Position numbers and translations under genes: made by a program
Assembly: GCA_026390695.1 (NCBI GenBank)
Contig: JAPLFL010000105.1
Span: forward strand, 1 to 58,887
Source: Candidatus Kapaibacterium sp.
GTDB taxonomy: Bacteria > Bacteroidota > Ignavibacteria > Kapaibacteriales > UBA2268
Length of the DNA stretch: 58,887 nucleotides
Direction of reading: 5' to 3'
The notes under the pieces: model-generated
Told to the model about the DNA's origin: nothing
Seen by the model: the letters and a program-made list of their open reading frames with translations, nothing else
The model's database searches: none
Shown here: positions 7,234-35,061 of the stretch, piece by piece
How the letters are laid out: each line of letters starts with the position of its first letter
Numbering within the stretch: position 1 is the stretch's first letter

Positions 7234-8683
7234 CGTTCTTGGCGGTTTGAAACCGCAGAAAGTATGGGAATTTTTTGAAGCGATCTGCAGCTATCCTCGC
7301 CCATCCAAAAAGGAAGAGAAAATTGCAGCATATATCATGGATTTTGCGAAAGAATATAAACTCAAAGCCGTTCGCGATAGTGCCGGAAACATAATAATCA
7401 AGAAACCAGCTACCAAAGGGATGGAAAACCGCAAAACAGTCTGTGTTCAAGGACATATTGACATGGTTTGCGAGAAAAATAATGATGTCGAATTTGATTT
7501 CGATGTCGATGGAATTCAGCCTTGGATCGACGGTGAATGGGTTAAAGCCAAAGGTACAACCCTCGGTGCGGATAATGGTATAGGAGTTGCAATGGCTATG
7601 GCAGTACTTGCATCCAACGATATTGAACATCCAGATTTTGAAGCCTTGTTTACCATAGATGAAGAGACTGGTTTAACAGGTGCTCAGGCTCTTGCTCCGA
7701 ATATTTTAAAAGCTGATATTTTAATAAATCTTGATTCCGAAGAAGATGGTGCTTTTACTATCGGTTGTGCGGGTGGAATCAATACAGCAGCCATTTTTGA
7801 TTATCATGCCGATACTTTAAATGGTGAACATTTTGCATTTGAAATTGCTTTAAAAGGCCTTCGTGGCGGTCATTCTGGAATTGAAATTCATGACGAACGT
7901 GGTAATGCAATTAAAATCCTCAATCGATTAATCTGGAATCTTACTCATAAATATAATGTCCGTTTAGCTACATTTAATAGTGGCAATAAACATAACGCAA
8001 TTCCAAGAGAAGGTTTTGCCGTTATTGCTTGTGCCAGACCTGCTAAACATGACGTTGCAAATTATATTACAGAATTCAACAGCATGGTGCATTTTGAGTA
8101 TGAAACTAAAGAACCAAACTTGCATTTCGTCACCACAGCAGTTGATATTCCTGATAAAGTGATGACTGTTGAATCACAACGTGCATTCTTGAATGCCCTT
8201 TATGCTTGCCCTCACGGCGTGATCCGTAATAGTCCCGATATTGAGAACCTTGTTCAAACTTCAACAAATCTTGCTGTTGTCGAAACTTTCGAGAAAGAAA
8301 TAAAAGTTGTTACCAGCCAGCGCAGTTCTGCCGAATCTGAGAAAATGGATCTTGCGACAATGGTGCGCACCGTATTTGAATTAGCAGGAGCCCGCCTTGA
8401 AGCCGGCGATGGTTATCCCGGATGGCAACCGAACATCAACTCACCAATTTTAAAACTCTGCAAAGATATTTCAAAAGAAGTTTATGGCAAAGAACCAAAA
8501 GTTGAAGCCATCCATGCAGGTTTGGAATGCGGATTAATCGGTGAGAAATATCCCGGAATGGATATGATCTCATTCGGGCCGACTTTAAAAGATGTTCATT
8601 CTCCTGACGAAAAGATTTTAATTCATACCGTTGAAAATTGTTGGAATTTATTCTTGGGTATTCTTAAAAACATACCAGCTTAA
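7226..8683 (+). CDS. pepD: Cytosol non-specific dipeptidase (aminoacyl-histidine dipeptidase, M20C)
   Basis: 485 residues, the full length of PepD. It hydrolyses dipeptides (Xaa-His and others) in the cytoplasm with two zinc ions. Expected ligands and catalytic residues are present: H77 and D79 in GHIDMVCE, D116 in GADNG, E146-E147 in DEETGLTGA, D170 in NLDSEE, and H458 in VHSPDEK. The start ATG at 7226 is preceded by AAAGGA (7215-7220) and lies inside the end of the PqqD-like gene. A strong terminator follows the stop. Codon use is somewhat more GC-rich than in the neighbouring surface-protein genes, as expected for a well-expressed housekeeping gene. Confidence 0.95.
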   Translation: MGNVLGGLKPQKVWEFFEAICSYPRPSKKEEKIAAYIMDFAKEYKLKAVRDSAGNIIIKKPATKGMENRKTVCVQGHIDMVCEKNNDVEFDFDVDGIQPWIDGEWVKAKGTTLGADNGIGVAMAMAVLASNDIEHPDFEALFTIDEETGLTGAQALAPNILKADILINLDSEEDGAFTIGCAGGINTAAIFDYHADTLNGEHFAFEIALKGLRGGHSGIEIHDERGNAIKILNRLIWNLTHKYNVRLATFNSGNKHNAIPREGFAVIACARPAKHDVANYITEFNSMVHFEYETKEPNLHFVTTAVDIPDKVMTVESQRAFLNALYACPHGVIRNSPDIENLVQTSTNLAVVETFEKEIKVVTSQRSSAESEKMDLATMVRTVFELAGARLEAGDGYPGWQPNINSPILKLCKDISKEVYGKEPKVEAIHAGLECGLIGEKYPGMDMISFGPTLKDVHSPDEKILIHTVENCWNLFLGILKNIPA

Positions 8684-8711: not shown

Positions 8712-8745
8712 AAAGAGCCGGAAAAATCCGGCTCTTTTGTTTTTA
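8712..8745. terminator. Rho-independent terminator after pepD
   Basis: An 11-bp perfect stem (8712-8722 with 8727-8737, core GAGCCGG/CCGGCTC) around an AAAA loop, followed by TTTTGTTTTT. The A-run on the other side means it can also stop minus-strand transcription coming from the GloVer gene, which ends at 8767. Confidence 0.9.
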
Positions 8746-8766: not shown

Positions 8767-10101
8767 TCAGCTTATGTTTCTCAAAAAATAAAGTGAAGGA
8801 ATGATTAGTGTTAAGACTAAAATCCACATAAGCCACGGCTGATAAAATGGAAATTTATTCCCACTAACGGGAATTTGATATTCATAAATTGTTCCGGCAT
8901 TCGATGTTCCACCAGTATAAGTTATTCCGTATAAGACTGAACCATTCAAGATCAGACTGCCGGAAGGATTGGCTCCGTTGCTCGCACCGGCAAAATCAAG
9001 CAATTTAGTAAACCCTGTGCCATCCGTATTTATTTTAAATAAAACCCCAAGATTATTTATCCCTCCATCCCAGGTTACTCCATAAAAATTGTTGTTATAA
9101 TATAATAATTCACCAAATCCGGGAGAACTTCCATTTGCTGCGGTAAAGTCATAAAGCTTGGCAAAGCCCGATCCATTCGTGTTTATCTTAAATAATACAC
9201 CTAATGAAGAACTTCCTCCCGTACTTGTCGTGCCGTAAAGAGTAGCGCCCTGCTGCCAAAGATTTCCATAAGGATAACTTCCATTTGTAATATCATCAAA
9301 ATCAAGTAAAACCGCAAAACCGCTTGCATCTGTATTTATTTTAAAAACCGCGCCAAAGCCGCTTAATCCACCTGCATAAGTCATACCATATAAAGTCGTC
9401 CCACTCAATGTTAAATTTCCAAGCGGAGTCAATCCGTTTGTTCCGTTAAAGTCAAATAGCTTTGTAAACCCTGTGCCATCTGTATTTATTTTGAAAATTA
9501 TCCCTGCCGAAGATATTCCTCCCCATGCTGTCATCCCATATAATGTGCTTCCGTTTATTATTAATCCTCCGTTAGGATATGCCCCATTTGCTACTATATC
9601 AAAATCAAATAATTTTGCATAACCTGAACCATCTGTATTTATTTTGAAAATAACTCCATTATCATTTAAACCTCCGGCAGAAGCCATGCCATAAAGTGTT
9701 GAGCCAATTAACAATAAATTTCCATAAGGAAATCTCCCATTACTTGCTCCCGCAAAATCGATTAGTTTTGAATAACCGCTTCCATTCATATTTATCTTGT
9801 AAACTACTCCAAAATTACTCAATCCTCCTGTACTCGTGGTTCCATACAGATAAGTTCCGTCACAAACAACTGCATTTAATGGCCATGAACCATTTGCCGG
9901 AGAACAATCACTGAGTTTTAAATACTGCGAATAGCAAGAAGATAAGTTTATGTTTATCTGAAAAATGATTAATATTGTTACCAGCATTACAATGTTAATG
10001 GACTTATACTTTTCATTATTAAATAATAAGCATTTAAAGCTAACACAGACAAAATTTGCGTCAGCTAATGTATCTTTTCTTCTATTCGTTAAATTAGTCA
10101 A
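8767..10101 (-). CDS. GloVer-repeat beta-propeller protein with probable exosortase sorting signal
   Basis: 444 residues. Seven tandem repeats of about 50 residues carry the GloVer pattern (LYGMT..GG..., then VFKINTDGSGF and LFDF), probably a seven-bladed propeller. GloVer proteins are known to use different surface anchors in different genomes. Here the C-terminus is not a T9SS domain. It has FPFYQPW, a hydrophobic stretch and then a basic end (LRN), the three-part layout of an exosortase signal; P and W have the same spacing as in the known IPTLxxWG-CTERM motif. An exosortase gene lies just upstream. The start is uncertain: TTG at 10101 has AAGGA 8 bases before it, but gives about 38 residues before the hydrophobic signal; ATG at 9987 leaves a signal without positive charge. 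Confidence 0.75.
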   Translation of the reverse strand: MTNLTNRRKDTLADANFVCVSFKCLLFNNEKYKSINIVMLVTILIIFQININLSSCYSQYLKLSDCSPANGSWPLNAVVCDGTYLYGTTSTGGLSNFGVVYKINMNGSGYSKLIDFAGASNGRFPYGNLLLIGSTLYGMASAGGLNDNGVIFKINTDGSGYAKLFDFDIVANGAYPNGGLIINGSTLYGMTAWGGISSAGIIFKINTDGTGFTKLFDFNGTNGLTPLGNLTLSGTTLYGMTYAGGLSGFGAVFKINTDASGFAVLLDFDDITNGSYPYGNLWQQGATLYGTTSTGGSSSLGVLFKINTNGSGFAKLYDFTAANGSSPGFGELLYYNNNFYGVTWDGGINNLGVLFKINTDGTGFTKLLDFAGASNGANPSGSLILNGSVLYGITYTGGTSNAGTIYEYQIPVSGNKFPFYQPWLMWILVLTLIIPSLYFLRNIS

Positions 10102-10164
10102 TAATAAAATCCTTCATGTTTCAATAAATTAAAACTAAAACATGTTTACGTTTTTTATACAATT

Positions 10165-10872
10165 TCAAATCTCCCCTACTTTCTTCTTAAAAACTATCCT
10201 AACAATAAACACCGACACAAAAAAAATCGCTATCGCTATCAATCCCTTCGTACTGATGTTCGAATGAGTATTAATCACTTGATTTATAAACGCTATGAAC
10301 TTAAATACCAAAGATTCCGGGTTTATTGTTGCGAATTTTTTTGTCGAATTATCATAAATGATCTGCTGTTTTGCGGTCTCGTACAAAATTATTGAAAATT
10401 TCAACAAAAATAATCCAAAATATATGACCGAACTCGCAAAAATCGCCACCAGTTTTTGCAAAAACGACAGCCTATATGAAATTAGCAACGCTATTGTCAG
10501 AATAAACGGAACATAAAAATGCGTCTTTATGTTAAATAAAATGTTCGGCAAGGCAATTTCATAATTACCGTTAGTGTGGTAAACCATCTTCGAGGCGGTG
10601 ATCGTTATATTTTCATAATTATAATCAATCGTCAGGCGCTTCAATTCGCTCTCCGAATAGATTGGCAAGGCCGTCGCAGCTTTAATCACCTTCAGCAAAC
10701 CAATCTGAAACGTCTGATTAACAAGCGAATATGAAAAAAATAACAAAATAAAAATCAAACATGATAAAATTACCGATTTCAAAACCGGAAAACTGTTCAT
10801 CCAACCGTTAATTAACTTAATTAAACTGGTTTTTGCTGACTTAACGAAGATATTTTTAATAACTTTATCCAT
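10165..10872 (-). CDS. Exosortase-associated integral membrane protein (putative)
   Basis: 235 residues. One transmembrane helix lies at about 28-50, then an extracytoplasmic stretch (about 51-118), two helices (about 119-140 and 146-170) and a last one at about 212-230 with a basic tail. It sits between the exosortase and its likely substrate, and its first 52 bases overlap the exosortase gene; an internal ATG at 10800 would remove the overlap. Some exosortase subfamilies, such as XrtH, have a companion membrane protein at this position. I infer that role from context and topology, since I see no diagnostic motif. Confidence 0.5.
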   Translation of the reverse strand: MDKVIKNIFVKSAKTSLIKLINGWMNSFPVLKSVILSCLIFILLFFSYSLVNQTFQIGLLKVIKAATALPIYSESELKRLTIDYNYENITITASKMVYHTNGNYEIALPNILFNIKTHFYVPFILTIALLISYRLSFLQKLVAIFASSVIYFGLFLLKFSIILYETAKQQIIYDNSTKKFATINPESLVFKFIAFINQVINTHSNISTKGLIAIAIFFVSVFIVRIVFKKKVGEI

Positions 10873-11456
10873 AATCCAAACTCAATAATTGCGATTAATA
10901 CCGGAAAAATTTCTATATGAAATAAATCAAGGTAGGAACTCTGACCAGCAAACATAATAAATAAGATAATCAATCTTAATATATTTAATCCAAAGATTAA
11001 TGATGCTCCTACAGCCATGATAATTAGTTTTTTAACAAATCTATTCGGGAATGAAATTGCAATAATTATGAATTGTGCAATCGGCTCGAAGCCATCGCAG
11101 CCCAATCCGATCTGGAATTGTGAATTGTTATAAATAAGACCTAAACCTGATAAATTGACATGATAACCAATAAAAGATACTACTGGCGCAATGATTGCAA
11201 CATCCATGAGAATTAAATTTGCAACAATCGTGTTAAAATAGCCGTTTTCTAAAAAATAATAAAATACAGGAAAAAGAACAATTAAACTAAAAATAAACTT
11301 GATTACAGGCTTATGCTTAATAATCAATAATTTAAGATTCTTCAAACCAAGTAAAATAATATTATTAGCCACTTTGGCTTTTATTCTTTTATCATATTTT
11401 TTTTTCTGTCTAATTATCACCATAAGCCCTTCATTTCTATCAAATTTCATCCACAA
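10821..11456 (-). CDS. Exosortase/archaeosortase-family transpeptidase
   Basis: 211 residues, mostly membrane helices, the size of the short exosortases (XrtH and archaeosortase-like). The catalytic Cys, Arg and His of the family are all present in the right order: C120 in GLGCDGFEP, R161 in FGLNILRL and H180 in LFHIEIFP. These enzymes cut C-terminal sorting signals at the periplasmic face of the inner membrane and transfer the protein to an anchor. The downstream GloVer protein carries a matching tail and is the only candidate substrate in the window. The N-terminal 20 residues are basic and hydrophilic, so a downstream start is possible. It is the first gene of a three-gene minus-strand operon. 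Confidence 0.85.
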   Translation of the reverse strand: MWMKFDRNEGLMVIIRQKKKYDKRIKAKVANNIILLGLKNLKLLIIKHKPVIKFIFSLIVLFPVFYYFLENGYFNTIVANLILMDVAIIAPVVSFIGYHVNLSGLGLIYNNSQFQIGLGCDGFEPIAQFIIIAISFPNRFVKKLIIMAVGASLIFGLNILRLIILFIMFAGQSSYLDLFHIEIFPVLIAIIEFGLWIKLLKISSLSQQKPV

Positions 11457-11663
11457 TTAAAATAATTCAAATTACATACCAATTATTAACTAAATCTATA
11501 TATTATATAATTATACGAATAAAAAAATCCCATTTCCAATAAAAATTGAAATGTTAATAAAAACCGATATGAATAAATTATTAAGTTTGAATCCACCTTT
11601 AACAGTAATTTATCTTTTTACAAATATAATTTGACAATAAATCAAAGATATTTTACATCATAG

Positions 11664-11810
11664 AACAGTATTTTATTATTCACGAACTGTATTTTATTAT
11701 TTACGAATATAATTTATTTATCATTGAATACAATATTATTAATCACGAATTTTATTTTAACTGCTTTGAACTGATTTTTTCTTTTAATGAATTATGCTTT
11801 AGCATTTTTG
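11664..11810. repeat. Degenerate part of a 21-bp periodic array (7 units)
   Basis: Seven consecutive 21-base units, each beginning AA and ending in G at 11684, 11705, 11726, 11747, 11768, 11789 and 11810. The first two are 19/21 identical (AACAGTATTTTATTATTCACG and its variant); later units diverge. The same period continues in the homogeneous block to the right after a phase shift of 13 bases. Confidence 0.7.
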
Positions 11811-11816
11811 ATTAAC

Positions 11817-12026
11817 TTCATTGATGATTTATTTCGTTTCGTTGATGATATATTTCATTTCGTTGATGATTTATTTCATTTCGTTGATGATTTTTTTCGT
11901 TTCGTTGATGATATATTTCATTTCGTTGATGATTTATTTCATTTCGTTGATGATTTTTTTCGTTTCGTTGATGATATATTTCATTTCGTTGATGATTTAT
12001 TTCGTTTCGTTGATGATTTATTTCTT
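11817..12026. repeat. 21-bp tandem repeat, 10 units, with 63-bp higher-order period
   Basis: Ten near-identical 21-base units of the form TTCGTTGATGATnTATTTCnT. Variants follow a three-unit order, repeated twice and then started a third time, so the array probably grew by duplication of 63-bp blocks. Four of six reading frames are open because the unit lacks stops in them; the plus-strand reading gives FVDDxFx heptads, but there is no ribosome binding site. I treat it as non-coding. 21 bases is two helical turns, so A/T tracts are phased and the DNA may be curved. Confidence 0.9.
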
Positions 12027-24915: not shown

Positions 24916-27798
24916 ATGATGAGAAAATTTATTCTCCGAGTTTTTATTTTAATGATAATTGCATTAAATTGCAGTCTGGCAGCGACGATCGAGTATGTTA
25001 ACCCAATTAATGGATCAACTTTTAATTCTCTTCGCTCTCCTCTGATTTTGCGTTCTTCAGAATTGCTGTTAAAAAGCACAATAGATCAAAACAGTTTAAT
25101 TGTTAATGGTGATAAAAGTGGCATTCACAGCGGCAAACTTAAACTTGCCGATGATGGTCGTACTTTATGTTTTGCCGTGAATGATCCTTTTCTTCCGAAT
25201 GAGAATGTTTCAGTTATGCTTTCAAATCAAATCAAAACAATTGACGGCAGTCTTTTAAATTCTTATACTTATAGTTTTTCAACAACGTCGCTTTCAGAGC
25301 CATTGCACGTCAATTTTTCTCCTGATGAACAAACTTTTTCTCTTACTTCAATTTCAGCAGCAGACGTTTCAACAACAAGTGCAACAATACCCAAACCATC
25401 TGATTGGCCTGCTTTAACTGTTGATACAACTGTAAATAATCCATCACCTGGTTATGTTTTTATTTCAAGCAATACTGGTAAACAATATGTTTACATGATG
25501 ATAATCGATAGCTATGCTAATCCGGTTGCTTATGTCGAAAATTTAATTTTTCCTAATTGGAATTTTACTATGCAGCCAAATGGTTTGGTAAGTGATGCTC
25601 ATATATTACAAGGTGTAACTCCTCCAGGTTTCGGTTGGGCAGAGAGCATTATTGAAATACGAGATAGTAATTTAAAAGTAATTGACTCAGCCCAGTTCAA
25701 AAACGGCTACATTGCTGATTTTCACGATTTTCATATCCTGCCGAACGGTCATATTTTATTTGTAGCTTATGATTATCAATTAATTGATATGAGTAAATAC
25801 GTAACTGGCGGCAGAGCTGATGCACAGGTTCTTGGAGGAATAATTCAGGAGCAGGATATGAGCGGTAATGTAGTATTCCAATGGCGTACATGGGATTGGA
25901 GAAAATTTGATGAATGTTATGAACCGCTAACGGGACCAAAAGTTGATTTAGTCCACATTAATGCTGTGGAACTCGATTATGATGGCAATATTCTTGTATC
26001 CAGTCGTCATACTTCTGATATAACAAAAATAAATCGTAAAACCGGCGAGATTATGTGGTATCTCGGAGGCAAAAAGAATCAATTTACTTTTCTAAATGAA
26101 ACAGTTAAATCCGAACCTTATTTTTCTTACCAACATGACATCCGGAGGCTACCAAACCGTAATATTACACTTTATGATAATGGTGTAAAACATAGTCCTC
26201 AATATTCAAGAGCAGTTGAATATCAACTTGATGAGGTAAATAAAACCTGCCAGTTAGTTTGGCAGTACAGGCACTCCGTTGGTGATATCTATGCAATGAC
26301 TCAGGGCAATGTCCAACGTTTAAAAAATGGGAACACTGTAATAGGTTGGGGCGGATTTACAAGCTCAAGTTCAACTTTTAGAAATAAAACTTATACTGAA
26401 GTTCATCCCGATGGTTCTATTGCACTTGAAATTTCTCTTCCAGTACTGATGTCTGGTGCAGGCACTTCATATCGTGCTTTCAAATTTCCCTGGCCACCAA
26501 TGCAGAAATACTCCCGTGGCGTTGTTACCGGTTTATCAAAAGGAACTGATTACTCATTTAAGGATACCCTTGCAACAGGAATTAGTCTGAATTTTGATAG
26601 CATCACAAAGAGTGGCACTGACAGCGTTATTGTTTCTCGATACGATTATGCACCGATGAAGCCTGTATTTATAGGATTAGCCCCACTGGTAGCGCCTTTC
26701 CGGTTTGAATTAGCAACAAAAAATATTAATCCGTATAGCACTAAATTTACTGTTGATCTGAATGAAATTTTAAATTTCTTCGATTCTGGCAAACTTAACG
26801 TATTTTACAGAGCTACACCAGGTGCAGGTACTTTTTCCAAACTCCCGACAACTTATAATGCTGCTAAAAATTCGATTACAGCAACAGTGACAGCCGATGG
26901 CGAATTTATTATCGGAGTGGATGACTCTATTCCGGCACCATCGAAGCCACATTTGATCTATCCTGATTCTGCATCTTTCCCCAATGCTAAAAATCCAATT
27001 CCCTTCAATTGGTCTCCTGAAGGCTATGTTCAGCGATCTACCATTCAGATTTCTGACAAATCCGATTTCAGTACATTTGCAGATAATCAAAGTAATCTTA
27101 AAGAAGCACTTATTACATTTTCAAATCTTGTAGCCGGAACAAAATACTACTGGAGAGTCCAGACTGAGAATGATAATGGAAAGAGCCCCTGGTCTGATGT
27201 TTGGACATTTATTCCAAAGAATCCTTATATTACTGTTTTAACACCAAACGGCGGTGAAGCCTTCTTGCAGAGCGATACTTCATTAATTAAATGGAAAACT
27301 AATTCAACTGATTCTGTAAAAATCTTACTCTACAGAAATAATGTTTACTATAATAATATCGCAGATAAATATTATTGCCCGTATCAGGCATATTATTGGG
27401 GACTACAGCCAATACTTGAGCTTGGGAACCGATATAAAATCAGAATAGTTTCACGCAAAGATTCTACTTTTTATGCTGAATCAAATAATTTCTTTGCAAT
27501 AGTTTTATCTGTAGAGTTTCAACAGATGCCGACACCTCTATTATCAATCAGCGAAATTTTCCCAAACCCTGCAAATGCACTTGTAAACATAGAATTCGAT
27601 ATTCCTAATTCTGATTACAGCACATTAAATATTTACGATATTAATGGGCTTGAAGTTGCAAAAGTATGCGAAGGGATTTTAAATCCCGGTAAATATAAAT
27701 TAGATTGTAATACTGCGAAATTGGCTCCTGGCATGTATTTTTGTAAATTAATAAATCGCGGAAATGTTTTTACATCTAAATTATTGATTATTAAATAA
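24916..27798 (+). CDS. Secreted arylsulfotransferase-fold protein with Ig/Fn3 domains and T9SS sorting domain
   Basis: 960 residues. A signal peptide (1 to about 22), a bacterial Ig-like domain (about 25-125), then an arylsulfotransferase (ASST) propeller at about 165-540. The ASST region shows NPSPGYVFIS, VHINAVELDYDGNILVSSRH, TGEIMWYLGG and YQHDIRRLPN...YDNG, the family signatures with two histidines in the usual places. One Fn3-like domain (YYWRVQTEN...SPWSDVWTF), a further module starting VLTPNGGEAF, and a T9SS domain (IFPNPANALVNI) follow. Arylsulfotransferases move sulfate between phenols in the periplasm; activity here on the cell surface is inferred. A TATATTTG box lies upstream at 24868. 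It is the first of three related genes. Confidence 0.8.
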   Translation: MMRKFILRVFILMIIALNCSLAATIEYVNPINGSTFNSLRSPLILRSSELLLKSTIDQNSLIVNGDKSGIHSGKLKLADDGRTLCFAVNDPFLPNENVSVMLSNQIKTIDGSLLNSYTYSFSTTSLSEPLHVNFSPDEQTFSLTSISAADVSTTSATIPKPSDWPALTVDTTVNNPSPGYVFISSNTGKQYVYMMIIDSYANPVAYVENLIFPNWNFTMQPNGLVSDAHILQGVTPPGFGWAESIIEIRDSNLKVIDSAQFKNGYIADFHDFHILPNGHILFVAYDYQLIDMSKYVTGGRADAQVLGGIIQEQDMSGNVVFQWRTWDWRKFDECYEPLTGPKVDLVHINAVELDYDGNILVSSRHTSDITKINRKTGEIMWYLGGKKNQFTFLNETVKSEPYFSYQHDIRRLPNRNITLYDNGVKHSPQYSRAVEYQLDEVNKTCQLVWQYRHSVGDIYAMTQGNVQRLKNGNTVIGWGGFTSSSSTFRNKTYTEVHPDGSIALEISLPVLMSGAGTSYRAFKFPWPPMQKYSRGVVTGLSKGTDYSFKDTLATGISLNFDSITKSGTDSVIVSRYDYAPMKPVFIGLAPLVAPFRFELATKNINPYSTKFTVDLNEILNFFDSGKLNVFYRATPGAGTFSKLPTTYNAAKNSITATVTADGEFIIGVDDSIPAPSKPHLIYPDSASFPNAKNPIPFNWSPEGYVQRSTIQISDKSDFSTFADNQSNLKEALITFSNLVAGTKYYWRVQTENDNGKSPWSDVWTFIPKNPYITVLTPNGGEAFLQSDTSLIKWKTNSTDSVKILLYRNNVYYNNIADKYYCPYQAYYWGLQPILELGNRYKIRIVSRKDSTFYAESNNFFAIVLSVEFQQMPTPLLSISEIFPNPANALVNIEFDIPNSDYSTLNIYDINGLEVAKVCEGILNPGKYKLDCNTAKLAPGMYFCKLINRGNVFTSKLLIIK

Positions 27799-27807
27799 GA
27801 AAATAAT

Positions 27808-27879
27808 TGACTGTCTCAAAAATTCGGAATTAATAGTTTAGGTAACACTAATTATTGATAAAAAAATTTGAGACAGTCA
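27808..27879. repeat. 13-bp perfect inverted repeat (terminator or MITE-like)
   Basis: TGACTGTCTCAAA at 27808-27820 is exactly repeated in inverse at 27867-27879, with 46 bases between. It starts 9 bases after the stop of the first ASST gene, so it may be a long-loop terminator; the T-rich bases after it fit. The ACTGTCTCA core also occurs alone at 80-88. The ends would also suit a tiny inverted-repeat element, but no target duplication is visible. Confidence 0.5.
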
Positions 27880-28024
27880 CATTTTGTTTTGTAACAAATT
27901 GTTTTTATTTTTGTTATTATATTGTGATTCTAATTTGACTTTCAATATGAATTGAAAATAATTAAAATTAAAAAGGAGACTGTTTATCGAATAATTAATA
28001 CTACATTTAAAGAGGATAATAAAT

Positions 28025-31000
28025 ATGAAACACTTTTCTTTGATTTTTATTAGTTTGATATTAATAAACGGTTATTTATTTGCCGATGACGTATTTCCTG
28101 CAGTATATCTGCATGTTCAAGAGGATCCGTCTCCCGGCTATTTTTTTGTTAGCCCATTTGGAAATAGTACAGCTTCATTAATAGATAACGGCGCTCATCA
28201 TATTTATGACAAAGCGACGTCCTTTAATGATGCCGGAACCAATAATGTATTATGGGATTTCAAAATTCATCCAAACAATAGGATTACTTTCTTTAGCAGA
28301 GCTGCAGTATTTGAGATTAATAAGAACTATGATGTGATCGATAGTTTTGTAACTCAAAATTACCCATTAGATTTTCATGAATTTATTTTTCTAAGTAATG
28401 GCAACGCTCTACTTTTAGGTCAGGATAATAGAATTGTCGATATGAGTCAGCTCGTGGATGGTGGCAGAGTTGGAACAAAAGTTTATGAATTTGTACTACA
28501 AGAGATAGATGCTAATAAGAATGTTGTCTGGCAATGGTTTTCGTATGATCATATTCCAATAACAGATGCTACCACCGACAATGATTTAACTAATTCTGAA
28601 ATTTTGCCTATTCATATAAACGCATTTTGTGAAGATTATGACGGAAACATTATTATCTCCTGCCGCCATCTTGATGAGCTTATTAAGATTAATAAAGGTA
28701 ATGGTAATGTAATTTGGAGAATGGGTGGTTCTGCATCAAAGAATAATCAATTTACATTTGTAAATGATACTAACAATGGGTTTGTCGGTTTCTCTCACCA
28801 GCATGATATAAGACGCCTGCCTAACGGGCATTATTTGTTGTTTGACAATGGTAATCTCAAACCAAATCCATATTCAAGAGCAGTTGAATATACTTTCGAC
28901 CAAGTAAATAAAATTGTAACTAAAGTATGGGAATATCGTTTACATGACTCTGACCATGCCGGTGCAATGGGTTCTGCCCAGCGTTTAGAAAATGGGAGCA
29001 CGGTAATCTGTGCCGGAAAAAAGGTTTTTGAGGTAACACAAAATGGGACAGTTAGCTCCAATTTTGAGCTTTCAAGTCCTGCCAATTTACCATATCGGGT
29101 ATATAAATTTGTTATTTTTTCTGATGCAGTTGCAAAAGATATTACTGGTAATGGAAGTTATCTGTTCAATCAGGATACATCAGTTACAAATCTTAGGTTG
29201 AATCTGACCTCAGTAACCGGTAACGGGAAATTAACCGTCGAAAAACACTTCTATCCTGCATTTGATACTCAGTATAGTGGTCCCGGCCCATGTTTGATTC
29301 TCCCCTATCGTTGGGTTATAACCAAAAATGGAATTTCATCCATTAGTGGAAAAATTAGGATCAAAATTTCAGATCTTCCTGAAGTAACAAATCCGTATGT
29401 TCTTGATTTATATAAGCGAGAAAAAGATGGTTACGGTTATTTTACAAAACTTCAAAATTTTCAATACTATAGCGCAACTCAGGAGATTGAAGCTGATTTC
29501 AGTGGTTTTGGTGAAATCATCATTGGTACGGATACTGTATTGAAAGCAATACTAACTAATCCTGCAAATAACTCAGGTTCCCATTTACTCAGCGGATATG
29601 TTTATTGGCGACCAATGTATGGTACTGATAACTTCAATGTTCAAATTGCCGCTGATCAATCATTCTCAAATCTTCTTTATGATAGAGTTATCAGAGATTC
29701 TTCATGTTTTTATTATACTGGTTTTGATTATAATAAAAAATATTACTGGAGGGTTCGCTATTCAAGTCCCTGTGGTAACAGCGATTGGTCAACTCCAAAT
29801 AATTTCACTACAAAATTATTTTATGCACTTCCCAATACGCCTGCCAATGGCGCAAGAGCCCAATCAACGGCAGGAACAATTTCTTGGGGTGCAGTTGATG
29901 GAGCTACTAAATACAGATTTCAATTGTCATCGGATTTGCAATTCAAGTCATTAATTACTGATAAAAGTAATATAAGTACTTCTTCAATGACTTATACGGA
30001 TTTAGTTTTCAATCAGACTTATTTCTGGCGTGTCATTGCTTCAAGTTCAACTAACACTGGAGATTGGTCCCCTGCATATTCATTTACTGTTATTTTGGGT
30101 ACACCAATTCAGAACTATCCTGCCAATAATACACCAGCTCTTAAACCCAATGATACTTTAAGCTGGGATGTAGTTCCCGGTGCAGAAAGATACAGACTTC
30201 AGATTTCTGAAGATTTTGATTTCGATACGATAAAAGTCGATGAAAGCGGAATCACTAAAAATTCTTTTACACTTACAACCCTTGAATTTAATAAAATGTA
30301 TTATTGGAGACTTAAAGCCTCTAATTCAAGCGGTAAGAGCGATTGGTCGCCGGTGTGGAATTTCACAACAATTATTGACCATCCTACATTAAAATCACCA
30401 ATTGATAATTCTTCCGATTTACCGATAAATTGCTCCTTCTCATGGATTGAAAGCCTGGGAGCCATAACTCACAGGTTGCAAATATCAACCAAACCTGATT
30501 TTTCAACTTTATTCTTTCAAGATACAGTTTTGACAACAAATTTTAAAACTGTTAATAATTTTCAATTTAATACAGTCTATTATTGGCGTGTTGCTTCCAA
30601 GAATAAAGTTTGCATCAGTAACTGGTCTGATACTTGGACATTTACTACTGTTCCAAAAAATATTCTTTTAAAACCTGTTTTAACAGATCCTGCTAATAAT
30701 AATTCAGGTATTAAGACAGACCCTGAGCTTACTTGGAAAGCCGTCACTGATGCGAATAAATACAGATTACAGTATTCCGACAATAATTCTTTCCAAAAGG
30801 TTATTCTTGATACAATTATTAACAATTCGACAAGTTTTAAAATTGGTGGATTAAAAAATAATACTTGGTATTTTTGGCATATTATGGCAGAAAATGATCT
30901 GTCTTCAAGCCCATGGTCAGAAACAGGTTCATTTTTGACTGCATTAACAACCCCAAAGCTGATTAATCCATCCAAAGATACCGTTTATTCAGTAAACGGT

Positions 31001-31510
31001 AATTTGTTTAGTTGGAGCAGGTCTGATTCTGCAAAGGATTATCACATTCAGGTCGGAGAAGATCCGTTATTTGATGTTCTTGCAATAGATGACAGATCCC
31101 CTAATGTCTATTATAAATTCTCTGATTTATCTAATGACCGTACTTATTATTGGCATGTTCAGGCATTAAATTTCATCAATAACAGCCTTTGGACAGCAAC
31201 TCAAAAATTTAAAACTGAAAAAATCATCAGCGTTGAAGATGAAATAAACTCATTTAAATTGAATATTTTCCCAAATCCTTTCTCAAGTCAACTTAATTTT
31301 GAACTGAATTTATCATATAATTCCTTAGTTGAATTAAAAATTTATGATATGTTAGGTAATGAGCAAGCTGAGGTGTTTAAAAGCTCATATCTCAATCATG
31401 GCACTTACTCTTATAAAATCAAACCAGATTTCCCTTTAACCGGACTTTATATTTGGAAATTGAAGATAAATAGTTTGGTTTATTCAGGAATTATTATTAA
31501 TTTGAATTGA
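28025..31510 (+). CDS. Secreted arylsulfotransferase-fold protein with six Fn3-like repeats and T9SS sorting domain
   Basis: 1161 residues. Signal peptide 1-21 and ASST propeller about 25-360 (PSPGYFFVSPFG, LPIHINAFCEDYDGNIIISC, SHQHDIRRLPNGHYLLFDNG). A middle beta domain (about 365-505) is followed by six Fn3-like repeats (about 510-1080), each with a Y-[YF]-W-[RH]-x core and a [DSP]-W-[ST] turn. A T9SS domain ends the protein (FPNPFSSQLNFEL). AGAGGA at 28011-28016 sets the start. It is longer than its upstream relative and lacks that protein's N-terminal Ig domain. The substrate is unknown; the Fn3 stalk should hold the propeller away from the cell. Confidence 0.8.
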   Translation: MKHFSLIFISLILINGYLFADDVFPAVYLHVQEDPSPGYFFVSPFGNSTASLIDNGAHHIYDKATSFNDAGTNNVLWDFKIHPNNRITFFSRAAVFEINKNYDVIDSFVTQNYPLDFHEFIFLSNGNALLLGQDNRIVDMSQLVDGGRVGTKVYEFVLQEIDANKNVVWQWFSYDHIPITDATTDNDLTNSEILPIHINAFCEDYDGNIIISCRHLDELIKINKGNGNVIWRMGGSASKNNQFTFVNDTNNGFVGFSHQHDIRRLPNGHYLLFDNGNLKPNPYSRAVEYTFDQVNKIVTKVWEYRLHDSDHAGAMGSAQRLENGSTVICAGKKVFEVTQNGTVSSNFELSSPANLPYRVYKFVIFSDAVAKDITGNGSYLFNQDTSVTNLRLNLTSVTGNGKLTVEKHFYPAFDTQYSGPGPCLILPYRWVITKNGISSISGKIRIKISDLPEVTNPYVLDLYKREKDGYGYFTKLQNFQYYSATQEIEADFSGFGEIIIGTDTVLKAILTNPANNSGSHLLSGYVYWRPMYGTDNFNVQIAADQSFSNLLYDRVIRDSSCFYYTGFDYNKKYYWRVRYSSPCGNSDWSTPNNFTTKLFYALPNTPANGARAQSTAGTISWGAVDGATKYRFQLSSDLQFKSLITDKSNISTSSMTYTDLVFNQTYFWRVIASSSTNTGDWSPAYSFTVILGTPIQNYPANNTPALKPNDTLSWDVVPGAERYRLQISEDFDFDTIKVDESGITKNSFTLTTLEFNKMYYWRLKASNSSGKSDWSPVWNFTTIIDHPTLKSPIDNSSDLPINCSFSWIESLGAITHRLQISTKPDFSTLFFQDTVLTTNFKTVNNFQFNTVYYWRVASKNKVCISNWSDTWTFTTVPKNILLKPVLTDPANNNSGIKTDPELTWKAVTDANKYRLQYSDNNSFQKVILDTIINNSTSFKIGGLKNNTWYFWHIMAENDLSSSPWSETGSFLTALTTPKLINPSKDTVYSVNGNLFSWSRSDSAKDYHIQVGEDPLFDVLAIDDRSPNVYYKFSDLSNDRTYYWHVQALNFINNSLWTATQKFKTEKIISVEDEINSFKLNIFPNPFSSQLNFELNLSYNSLVELKIYDMLGNEQAEVFKSSYLNHGTYSYKIKPDFPLTGLYIWKLKINSLVYSGIIINLN

Positions 31511-31578
31511 GGTATAAAACAATGTAGTTCTCATTATTTAAAGGTGTTTTATAGAGCGTTTCTACAAATAAAAATTGA

Positions 31579-34500
31579 ATGGAAAATATGAACTCTATAG
31601 TTTTGCTCATTATGGCATCGCTTTTAAATGTTTGGGAATTTCCTACATTAACAACTAATGTTCAAGAAGATCCTTCACCGGGTTATTATTTTGTCGGCCC
31701 ATATTCATCATTGTATTTAACAATCATTGATAATGGCGGACATCATGTATTTGATAAATTATTAGAACAGTCCTCACCATTAGAGAGTGAAGGTATTTCT
31801 GATTTTAAAGTCCATCAAAATCAAAAAATAACCTATTTCAACAATTATGAACATAAAGTCTATCAGATAGATAAATCTTTTAATCTGATTGATAGTTTTT
31901 TTATAACAAGAGCAAATACATTAACTGATTTTCATGATTTTCAGTTCCTTTCCAATGGCCATGCGTTATTATTAGGCTGTGAAACCAGAATAATGGATTT
32001 AAGTAAAGTTGTTACCAATGGTAATCCCAATGCTCAGGTTTTCGGATTTATTCTTCAGGAACAAGATGAAAATAAAAATGTTGTATGGAATTGGAATACT
32101 TTTGATCATATAGATTTAACCGACGCTACCCAAGATATAGATTTCACAAGATCAACAGTCATGCCCTTTCATGTAAATTCCATGTTTGAAGATGTGGACG
32201 GAAATTTGATAATTTCATGCCGAAATTTAGATGAAATCATTAAGATCAATAAATCTAACGGCAATATCATCTGGATAATGGGTGGGTCACTATCCAAAAG
32301 AAATCAATTTTTATTCGCAAATGATTCAGTTGATAATTTCTGTGGTTTTTCACACCAGCACGCTGTCAAAAGGCTTGCAAACGGGAATCTGCTTCTAATT
32401 GATAACGGTAATCTCAAACCAACACCCTTTACTCGAATTGTAGAATATTCAATAGATGAAGTAAATAAAATTGCCACAAAAGTATGGGAATATTTTGATA
32501 GTCCTGCAACTTACGCCGAGAGCATGGGCAACGTACAACGGCTTAGTAACGGGAATACTATTTTTAATTGGGGAAATAAATTCGGTGAAGTTAATAGCGA
32601 AGGTGTATTAATTAGCAGAATTGATGTTTCAGATGTAACACCTTATAGAGCATATAAATTTCAAATATTCTCCGATTTTGTAAAAAAAACTGTCTCTGGA
32701 ACCGGAAATTTTACATTTTCACAAGGATCGACAAACACCGGACTGAGTCTGAATATAAATTCAATTAGTGGTGCAGGATCAATTGGCACAGAGAAACATT
32801 TTTACACAGCGTTCGGCTCTACATATAATGGCACTGCACCTTGTCTGGTACTCCCCTATCGCTGGGTTACAACCAAACAAGGAATTTCATCGGCATCAGG
32901 CAAGATACGAATAAAAATTTCCGATTTGCAAGAGATATCCGATCCAACTGTTTTAAGAATTTATAAAAGAGATAAAGACGGATACGGCACTTTCAGTTTA
33001 TTGCAAAATTTCGCTTATTATAGCGCTACTCAGGAAATAGAATCAGATTTCAGTGGTTTCGGCGAATTTATTATCGGAATGAGTTCAGCTCAGAAGGCTG
33101 TACTTTCAAGTCCTGCTGACAATTCTTCAGCCAATCTTTTGAACGGATATCTGATATGGCACCAGACTTCAGGAGCAAGCTCTTATAATGTTCAGATTGC
33201 GACAGAAGATACCTTTTCAAATATTATTTTTAATACAACTATCAGAGATTCAAGTTCATTTTATTATACCTTATTAAAAAGCAATACAAAATATTTTTGG
33301 AGAGTTAAATATTCCAGCCAATGCGGAGAAAGCGATTGGTCAACCGTAAGATCATTTAATACGAAATTAGGAACTATCAAACCAAGCTCTCCTGCTGATA
33401 ATTCAAAATCTCAACAGCCAAACGGCATTATTTCATGGACGGCTGTTGAAGGTGCGGGCTACTACCGTTTTCAATTATCAACTGACAATAACTTCAAATC
33501 TATCATTTTGGATCAAGCAAATTTAAGTCAAACGTCTATTAGCTATACAAATTTAAATTTTAATCAAACTTATTTCTGGCGTGTAATCGCTATGAGCCCG
33601 ACCAACGGTGGTGATTGGTCTGCCGGATTTTCTTTTTCCGTGATATTGGCAGCTCCTATTCAGAATTATCCTCCAAATAAAACTTTGGCTTTAAATCAAA
33701 ACGATGTGTTAAGATGGAATGCAGTAGTGGGAGCAGATAGATACAGACTGCAAATATCTTCAAATACAAATTTTGATACACTCAAAGTCGATGAAACCGG
33801 ATTGACACAAAATTCTTACACTCTTAGTCCATTAAACTACAATAGAACATATTACTGGCGACTAAAAGCTTCGAATGCTGGCGAAAAAAGCGATTGGTCG
33901 CCAGTTTGGAGTTTTACAACGGTTATAAACCATCCGGATTTGAAATCTCCATCAAATAATGCTTCTGATCAATCCATAAACTGCTCATTCTCTTGGTTAG
34001 AAGCTCTGGGTGCGATAACTTACAGACTTCAAATTTCAAGGCTACCTGATTTTAGTGATCTTGCTTTTCAAGACACTTTACTTACAACAAATTACAAAAC
34101 TGTCCAAAATTTGCAAAATAATACAATTTATTATTGGAGAGTTGCTGCAAAAAATAGTGTATGTATAAGCGACTGGTCTAATATTTGGACATTTTCAACT
34201 ATATCAAAAAATATTCTTGCCAAACCAAGTTTAAGTTCACCGGTGGATAGTTCATCAGGTATTCCCACTGATCCTTCCTTAATATGGAAAGCCGTACCTA
34301 ATGCCACGAAATACAGATTACAATATTCGGAAAATGTTGATTTTAATCCGCCTATTGCTGATACTGTTATTAGCAACAGCACATCAATTCAAATTTCAGG
34401 ATTAAAGAATAATAAATGGTATTACTGGCATACAAGGGCAACTAATGATTTAGCTTCGAGTTCTTGGTCTGACTCATATTCTTTTTTAACGGCGCTGACA

Positions 34501-35061
34501 TCACCCGACCAATTAAATCCATCAAAAGATAGTTGTTATTCACTTACAGATAATATATTCAGTTGGATGAAATCTGAGAGCGCCATCAGTTATCATATAC
34601 AAGTCGGAGAAGATCCCCTATTTGATGTTTTAAGGATTGATGATTTTACTCAGAATTTATTTTACAAATTTTCTGATTTATATGACGGGAGAATATATTA
34701 TTGGCATATAAAATCACTGAATAGTGCCAACAGTAGCCTCTGGTCCCCAATTCAAAGATTCAGCACGGAAAAAATCATTTCAGTTGAAGATTTCGATAAA
34801 AATAATTTAGTTTATATATATCCAAATCCTTTTTCAGATAAAATTAACTTTGACTTAAATCTTACTACTGATTTAAAAGTCAATCTAAAAATCTTTGATA
34901 TATTTGGAATTTTGCGGATTAATCTTCTTAACAACGAAATGATCAATGCTGGTATTCATACAATCAGTTTCCCAACTCAATTGTCAAAATCCGGAATTTA
35001 TATTTGGAAATTGGAGATTAATAATTTAACTTTGTTTGGGAAATTAATTAAACTTGATTAA
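31579..35061 (+). CDS. Secreted arylsulfotransferase-fold protein, tandem duplicate of the upstream gene
   Basis: 1160 residues, with the same domain order as its upstream neighbour (ASST propeller, middle domain, six Fn3-like repeats, T9SS tail) and strong residue-by-residue similarity throughout, for example NVQEDPSPGYYFVGPY, SHQHAVKRLANGNLLLIDNG and EDPLFDVLRIDD. This is a tandem duplication. The HQHD motif of the other two copies is HQHA here, so a conserved acidic residue is lost. The signal sequence (MNSIVLLIMASLLNV) has no positive charge before its hydrophobic core, unlike its neighbours. Both points hint at altered function or export. Confidence 0.8.
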   Translation: MENMNSIVLLIMASLLNVWEFPTLTTNVQEDPSPGYYFVGPYSSLYLTIIDNGGHHVFDKLLEQSSPLESEGISDFKVHQNQKITYFNNYEHKVYQIDKSFNLIDSFFITRANTLTDFHDFQFLSNGHALLLGCETRIMDLSKVVTNGNPNAQVFGFILQEQDENKNVVWNWNTFDHIDLTDATQDIDFTRSTVMPFHVNSMFEDVDGNLIISCRNLDEIIKINKSNGNIIWIMGGSLSKRNQFLFANDSVDNFCGFSHQHAVKRLANGNLLLIDNGNLKPTPFTRIVEYSIDEVNKIATKVWEYFDSPATYAESMGNVQRLSNGNTIFNWGNKFGEVNSEGVLISRIDVSDVTPYRAYKFQIFSDFVKKTVSGTGNFTFSQGSTNTGLSLNINSISGAGSIGTEKHFYTAFGSTYNGTAPCLVLPYRWVTTKQGISSASGKIRIKISDLQEISDPTVLRIYKRDKDGYGTFSLLQNFAYYSATQEIESDFSGFGEFIIGMSSAQKAVLSSPADNSSANLLNGYLIWHQTSGASSYNVQIATEDTFSNIIFNTTIRDSSSFYYTLLKSNTKYFWRVKYSSQCGESDWSTVRSFNTKLGTIKPSSPADNSKSQQPNGIISWTAVEGAGYYRFQLSTDNNFKSIILDQANLSQTSISYTNLNFNQTYFWRVIAMSPTNGGDWSAGFSFSVILAAPIQNYPPNKTLALNQNDVLRWNAVVGADRYRLQISSNTNFDTLKVDETGLTQNSYTLSPLNYNRTYYWRLKASNAGEKSDWSPVWSFTTVINHPDLKSPSNNASDQSINCSFSWLEALGAITYRLQISRLPDFSDLAFQDTLLTTNYKTVQNLQNNTIYYWRVAAKNSVCISDWSNIWTFSTISKNILAKPSLSSPVDSSSGIPTDPSLIWKAVPNATKYRLQYSENVDFNPPIADTVISNSTSIQISGLKNNKWYYWHTRATNDLASSSWSDSYSFLTALTSPDQLNPSKDSCYSLTDNIFSWMKSESAISYHIQVGEDPLFDVLRIDDFTQNLFYKFSDLYDGRIYYWHIKSLNSANSSLWSPIQRFSTEKIISVEDFDKNNLVYIYPNPFSDKINFDLNLTTDLKVNLKIFDIFGILRINLLNNEMINAGIHTISFPTQLSKSGIYIWKLEINNLTLFGKLIKLD

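Follow-up and report, generated by a model that had tools for sequence, protein, structure and literature searches.

The window, a stretch of 58,887 nucleotides, corresponds to contig C26 of a genome of 4.63 Mb in 129 contigs, with a completeness rating of 100%. On its minus strand, genes for an exosortase, a membrane partner and a GloVer repeat protein follow each other in this order (Table 1), the first two overlapping by 52 nt. The start of the GloVer gene is unsure: the TTG at 10101 yields the length listed, the ATG at 9987 a product of 406 aa. Four terminator-like stems were counted in the region against 1.5 expected, all of them matches to a consensus only. Upstream of the exosortase gene, positions 11817-12024 hold a tandem array of about ten 21-nt units (higher-order unit of 63 nt, 97% matches), in which an 86-aa ORF is open on the plus strand, yet the array looks non-coding; shorter arrays with a unit of 20 to 22 nt lie at 11663-11750. 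The third-position GC content of the partner gene is 0.43, compared to 0.21 to 0.41 in 17 long ORFs of the window.

Table 1. Features of the exosortase locus in the window.
Feature	Position	Strand	Remarks
Exosortase	10821..11456	-	211 aa, TTG start at 11456; ATG at 11450 possible
Exosortase-associated membrane partner	10165..10872	-	235 aa
GloVer (TIGR03803) surface protein, likely substrate	8767..10101	-	444 aa, seven repeats
Variant exosortase tail of the GloVer protein	8770..8865	-	SGNKFPFYQPWLMW-helix-LRNIS
Terminator-like stem	8712..8737	.	11 pairs; past the GloVer stop, between two convergent genes

A sequence-only reading of this DNA had taken the 211-residue protein for an exosortase with C120, R161 and H180 as its Cys/Arg/His set, and profile searches bore this out. 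The protein scored 36.5 bits against the exosortase/archaeosortase signature TIGR04178 (cut-off 23) and narrowly missed the Pfam exosortase model (23.2, cut-off 25.7). C120, R161 and H180 are the same in all 25 aligned sequences (the window enzyme and 24 relatives), as are G119, G150, N158 and L165. Among 345 ORFs, a model built without the window protein retrieved it at E 2.3e-32, and the best-scoring non-member of the family reached E 2.1e-4. The search against named sub-families that the same reading had proposed gave a divided answer: the superfamily signature was passed, and every sub-family cut-off was missed. The best-scoring one was XrtX (NF046081, 57.7 bits, cut-off 170), and XrtH (TIGR04177) reached 37 bits for a cut-off of 86. 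The enzyme can therefore be assigned neither to XrtH nor to XrtX, and both identifications were rejected. Its AlphaFold2 model (mean pLDDT 89.4) contains six helices, among them 123-135, 140-171 and 174-207; C120 immediately precedes the first of these, and the Cys, Arg and His are predicted to lie near the ends of consecutive helices. No solved structure related to the enzyme was found by profile search, and neither the exosortase nor the partner model had a fold match at E 0.001 or below. In the exosortase tree the window enzyme has an end branch of 3.12, the second longest of 26 (median 0.5); no supported group contains it, and it is placed apart from a paralogue encoded on contig C15 of the same genome. 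Judged by its sequence, the 211-residue protein is a very diverged enzyme of the exosortase superfamily.

The membrane protein overlapping the exosortase, also noticed in the sequence-only reading, proved to belong to a recurrent family. An ORF lies directly after or overlaps the exosortase gene on the same strand at 25 of the 26 exosortases that were placed (the window and 25 loci). We aligned 24 of these ORFs as a partner family, leaving out that of genome G147, at whose locus the best ORF reached just E 0.035 against the partner model. The sole locus devoid of an adjoining partner ORF is that of genome G015; its best ORF matched the model at E 8.8e-11 and is considered a fragment of a partner. 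A model of the 23 partners adjoining the relatives' exosortases recovered the window partner at E 4.2e-11, and the best ORF outside the family appeared at E 4.1e-5, so that the hydrophobic background is not negligible. The membrane partner thus recurs beside the exosortase across the order. Searched alone, the window partner gave no match up to E 0.1 in NCBIfam or Pfam, the XrtH-associated membrane protein NF041730 (XrtH_assoc) included. Weak matches to the latter in 4 of the 24 family members (best E 1.6e-4) suggest that the partner family is a diverged relative of this known sort of companion. The predicted structure of the window partner (mean pLDDT 83.5) consists of N-terminal helices, a beta stretch (77-114) and further helices; a profile search against solved structures returned one match at E 0.1, which we took as chance.

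The third gene encodes, as had been read from the sequence, a seven-repeat GloVer protein: seven stretches match TIGR03803, with 249 bits in total for a cut-off of 44. Its C-terminus carries a P-x4-W motif, a hydrophobic stretch and a basic end, the three parts of an exosortase-type tail. This pattern was found in 30 C-termini among the 551 distinct ones that the ORFs of the fetched loci provide, a collection rich in tail proteins, compared to a mean of 0.2 when all tails were shuffled; shuffles of the GloVer tail itself matched in 229 of 20000 cases. The tail had been described as a variant of the IPTLxxWG type, and the P-to-W spacing is indeed the same in both. The GloVer tail is the least like IPTLPEWG (2 of 24 positions), and a search of the whole genome with the IPTL-CTERM model TIGR04174 up to E 10 missed it, returning only proteins on contigs C24 and C22. 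The GloVer protein is a plausible substrate of the window exosortase. Its signal peptide holds the motif LSSC, which fits a lipobox, and the protein could thus be a lipoprotein as well as tail-bearing.

The variant tail is shared. The genome encodes at least five exosortase-tail proteins, two with the ordinary IPTLPEWG tail (C24 and C22) and three with the variant motif [FV]P[LF][FY]x[PT]W[LV]M, namely the GloVer protein and one protein each on contigs C105 and C80. A ten-row tail model recovered the C24, C22 and GloVer tails, all of them among its own rows, with the next best match at E 0.46. A two-row model, made of the GloVer tail and an IPIWDSPW tail from genome G027, pointed weakly (E 0.11) to the 596-residue C105 protein. 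Comparison of the two ends, SGKYFPLFPPWLMYLLV for C105 and SGNKFPFYQPWLMWILV for GloVer, revealed a common FPxxxPWLM core, and a model of these two tails retrieved the C80 protein at E 3.0e-4, with an end of the form VPLFPTWVM-helix. When each variant tail was left out in turn and searched for among the 551 C-termini, it came directly after the model's own two rows every time: GloVer at E 6e-5 (best ordinary tail 1.6e-3), C80 at E 3.2e-7 (0.33) and C105 at E 1.9e-9 (2e-5). These gaps indicate that the variant and ordinary classes are related but separable. The residue before the Trp is Pro or Thr in the three variant tails and Glu or Asp in 35 of 35 tail rows from other genomes, a set that leans towards Glu and Asp, having been collected by a model built mostly of such tails. 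Over 24 positions the C80 tail shares 10 residues with C105, 7 with GloVer, 7 with C24 and 9 with C22; it is thus intermediate, and either exosortase of the genome could serve the C80 protein. Among 391 genomes sampled from the class, the variant tail was found in this genome only. Five weak matches in other genomes (E 5.6e-4 to 8.2e-3) were dropped, as the loci read held no ORF of at least 60 aa ending in the motif; apart from the GloVer tail and two tails of G027, the two-row model gave no match better than E 0.0066; among its weaker matches, those in C105 and G097 were read, and the one in G097 was dropped.

These tails bear on two other explanations of the locus. The GloVer tail could be a mere C-terminal membrane anchor, next to an exosortase by chance, with the real substrates elsewhere; its lack of the acidic residue present before the Trp in all 35 rows and its absence from the TIGR04174 matches would fit. 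We find this very unlikely, given that the same core occurs on the C105 protein, which has no GloVer repeats, that the P-x4-W spacing is that of ordinary tails, and that tail proteins lie near exosortases at nine other fetched loci. The sequence-only reading had instead proposed an enzyme dedicated to the single adjoining GloVer protein, in keeping with the enzyme-partner-GloVer order on one strand. Against it, the C105 and C80 proteins, encoded on other contigs, bear the variant tail as well, the former with the same FPxxxPWLM core. The one-substrate reading was rejected once these two tails had been found, and we now regard it as extremely improbable; the genome moreover contains a second exosortase and the two IPTLPEWG proteins. 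Neither the second exosortase nor the two further variant-tail proteins had figured in that reading.

Two exosortases of the genome exceed the signature cut-off; one more match falls far short of it. The second enzyme, on C15, is the more ordinary of the two and has its own membrane partner; no tail protein was found beside it within the 14 kb read. It scored 77.7 bits against XrtH, and ten relatives tested singly scored 64 to 92 bits, one of the ten passing the cut-off of 86. These scores suggest that the exosortase family of the order is XrtH-like, the window enzyme having the lowest value of the twelve (ten relatives, C15 and window). In the tree, the C15 enzyme belongs to a group of 11 with support of 94/90, and the genomes of this group have ordinary tails. 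A dispersed intergenic repeat, approximately FLRMQESPSSA..LGDSCIR.ND, was seen near several of the exosortase and tail genes on C15, C24 and C105.

Some passenger domains are found with both tail classes. Between the C80 protein, with a variant tail, and the C24 protein, with IPTLPEWG, identity is 43% over 372 residues. The C105 and C22 proteins have a C-terminal domain in common (41% over 135 residues, an alignment that includes the tail) and differ in their tails. The tails of this genome behave as swappable suffixes, as PEP-CTERM tails are described in PMC3237569.

We then compared the exosortases and tails of other genomes. Across 123 genomes of the order, 22 contain both the enzyme and the tail, one the enzyme only (G015), one the tail only (G039, 76% complete, with six tails) and 99 neither, which gives 23 genomes with the enzyme, 23 with the tail and a Fisher p of 4.6e-22. 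Without the seven genomes from which rows of the tail model were taken, the enzyme was found in 16, the tail in 16 and both in 15 of 116 (p 9.2e-17); by genus, 12 have the enzyme, 11 the tail and 11 both of 51 (p 2.5e-10). Because the genomes are related and also served to build the enzyme model, these p-values overstate the association; the pattern itself is plain, and the co-occurrence of enzyme and tail class is near-perfect. The nearest relative of the window enzyme by BLAST is that of G015 (branch length 1.55), a genome in which no tail was recognised. Genome G003 has two exosortases as well; the seven tails detected there are without exception ordinary, and the two-row model of the GloVer and G027 tails returned nothing better than E 0.38. 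G027 offers a parallel to the window, combining an exosortase on a long branch (2.19) with two proteins that end in the altered tail IPIWDSPW (L160 1414-4128; L057 3949-6834); both have a choice-of-anchor U domain and one lies beside the exosortase. With IPIWDSPW, a further genus of the family has an altered exosortase tail of its own. The exosortase of G147 (L056), outside the order, is on a branch of 3.99, and an adjoining 116-aa ORF at 7287-7637 ends in VPLTEGLPFLAIAGTAYGVYALKKKRNMSDGN, which looks like yet another, different-looking exosortase tail. Scanning a named genome collection with the single protein yielded no relative. With six aligned sequences, the same scan gave six loci. MAGs titled Ignavibacteria, Ignavibacteriae or Kapaibacterium account for four of them, and the other two come from a Bacteroidetes MAG and a Phycisphaerales MAG; the window genome therefore probably belongs to the Kapaibacterium group of Bacteroidota. 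A mobile or viral origin was considered and set aside: a pattern search of viral contigs yielded no relative, and plasmids gave only two partial XrtM gene matches.

The locus lies in a genome dominated by T9SS tails, in line with the sequence-only reading, which had placed it beside T9SS. In the whole genome, at least 150 T9SS-tail matches exceeded the cut-off (150 scored of 286 candidates; these are matches, not checked genes), and of seven long proteins scanned in the window, five exceeded the cut-off of the Pfam Por_Secre_tail model and two were slightly under it. The known proteins of both exosortase lanes together number five; T9SS tails being far commoner, the exosortase lane is a minor one. 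Three proteins with arylsulfotransferase and fibronectin-like domains occupy 24916-35061 of the window, two with a T9SS tail over the Pfam cut-off and the third slightly under it. GloVer repeats were detected on two contigs of the genome only, the window and C94; the C94 protein (1803 aa) has a T9SS tail at its end.

On this basis, we consider it probable that XrtH-like sorting was duplicated in this genome and diverged into a second enzyme/tail pair, made up of a diverged additional exosortase and another tail class, borne by at least three proteins. The second exosortase would have arisen by duplication rather than by a separate gain. The signal peptide would export the substrate through the inner membrane, where the C-terminal helix would hold it and the window exosortase would recognise the variant motif. 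According to the model for the family, Cys120 would attack near the motif on the outer face with the help of Arg161 and His180, the helix would be released, and the protein would be passed to an acceptor. The partner probably assists in binding or positioning either the tail or the acceptor. We infer which enzyme takes which tail from one adjacency, that of the GloVer gene in the window: the two IPTLPEWG proteins would be processed by the XrtH-like C15 enzyme, GloVer and C105 by the window enzyme, and C80 could go to either.

Alternatively, both exosortases might act on all five tails, the window enzyme being fast-evolving and partly redundant and the tail differences mere drift. The intermediate C80 tail is consistent with such a relaxed code, as is G003, with its two exosortases and single tail class. 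We nevertheless regard it as unlikely: the window enzyme retains its catalytic residues and its partner, it adjoins the very tail least like IPTLPEWG, and G027, with another long-branch enzyme, has altered tails too. A stronger form of the duplication reading, which we advance tentatively and hold to be somewhat short of probable, is that two insulated exosortase lanes exist, in which enzymes and tails co-diverged and related passengers end up on different acceptors or sites, beside the T9SS that handles most surface proteins. If so, passengers of one repeat family, or with one C-terminal domain, would receive either tail within the same cell. To our knowledge, the tail features that exosortases read are little known, and bench studies are few. 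By combining two exosortases with two tail classes, and by placing either tail on matched passengers, this genome amounts to a natural specificity-swap experiment, which points to tail residues that may decide the choice of enzyme: acidic or not before the Trp, small or large after it.

The closest known counterpart is the XrtH system (TIGR04177, IPTL-CTERM TIGR04174 and NF041730), to which PMC8671808 is relevant. The window system resembles it in superfamily, in the P-x4-W geometry of the tail and in the adjoining membrane partner; it differs in the low XrtH score of the enzyme, in a partner without an XrtH_assoc match, and in a GloVer tail without TL and without an acidic residue before the Trp. 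XrtX is the top named sub-family for the window enzyme, which remains far under its cut-off; the exosortase literature searched does not mention XrtX. For the PEP-CTERM/EpsH system, PMC1569441 describes Cys, Asn-x-x-Arg and His motifs and a tail made of a motif, a helix and a basic end, and both the motifs and the three-part tail recur in the window system. However, the window enzyme has about 200 residues, whereas EpsH has at least eight predicted helices, and the separate partner belongs to a family without a match to any EpsI-named model. No polysaccharide genes were found among the six neighbours of the window exosortase that were scanned. Compared with the GloVer choice-of-anchor proteins, finally, the window passenger is a plain member, and the other GloVer protein of the genome, on C94, is T9SS-tailed instead.
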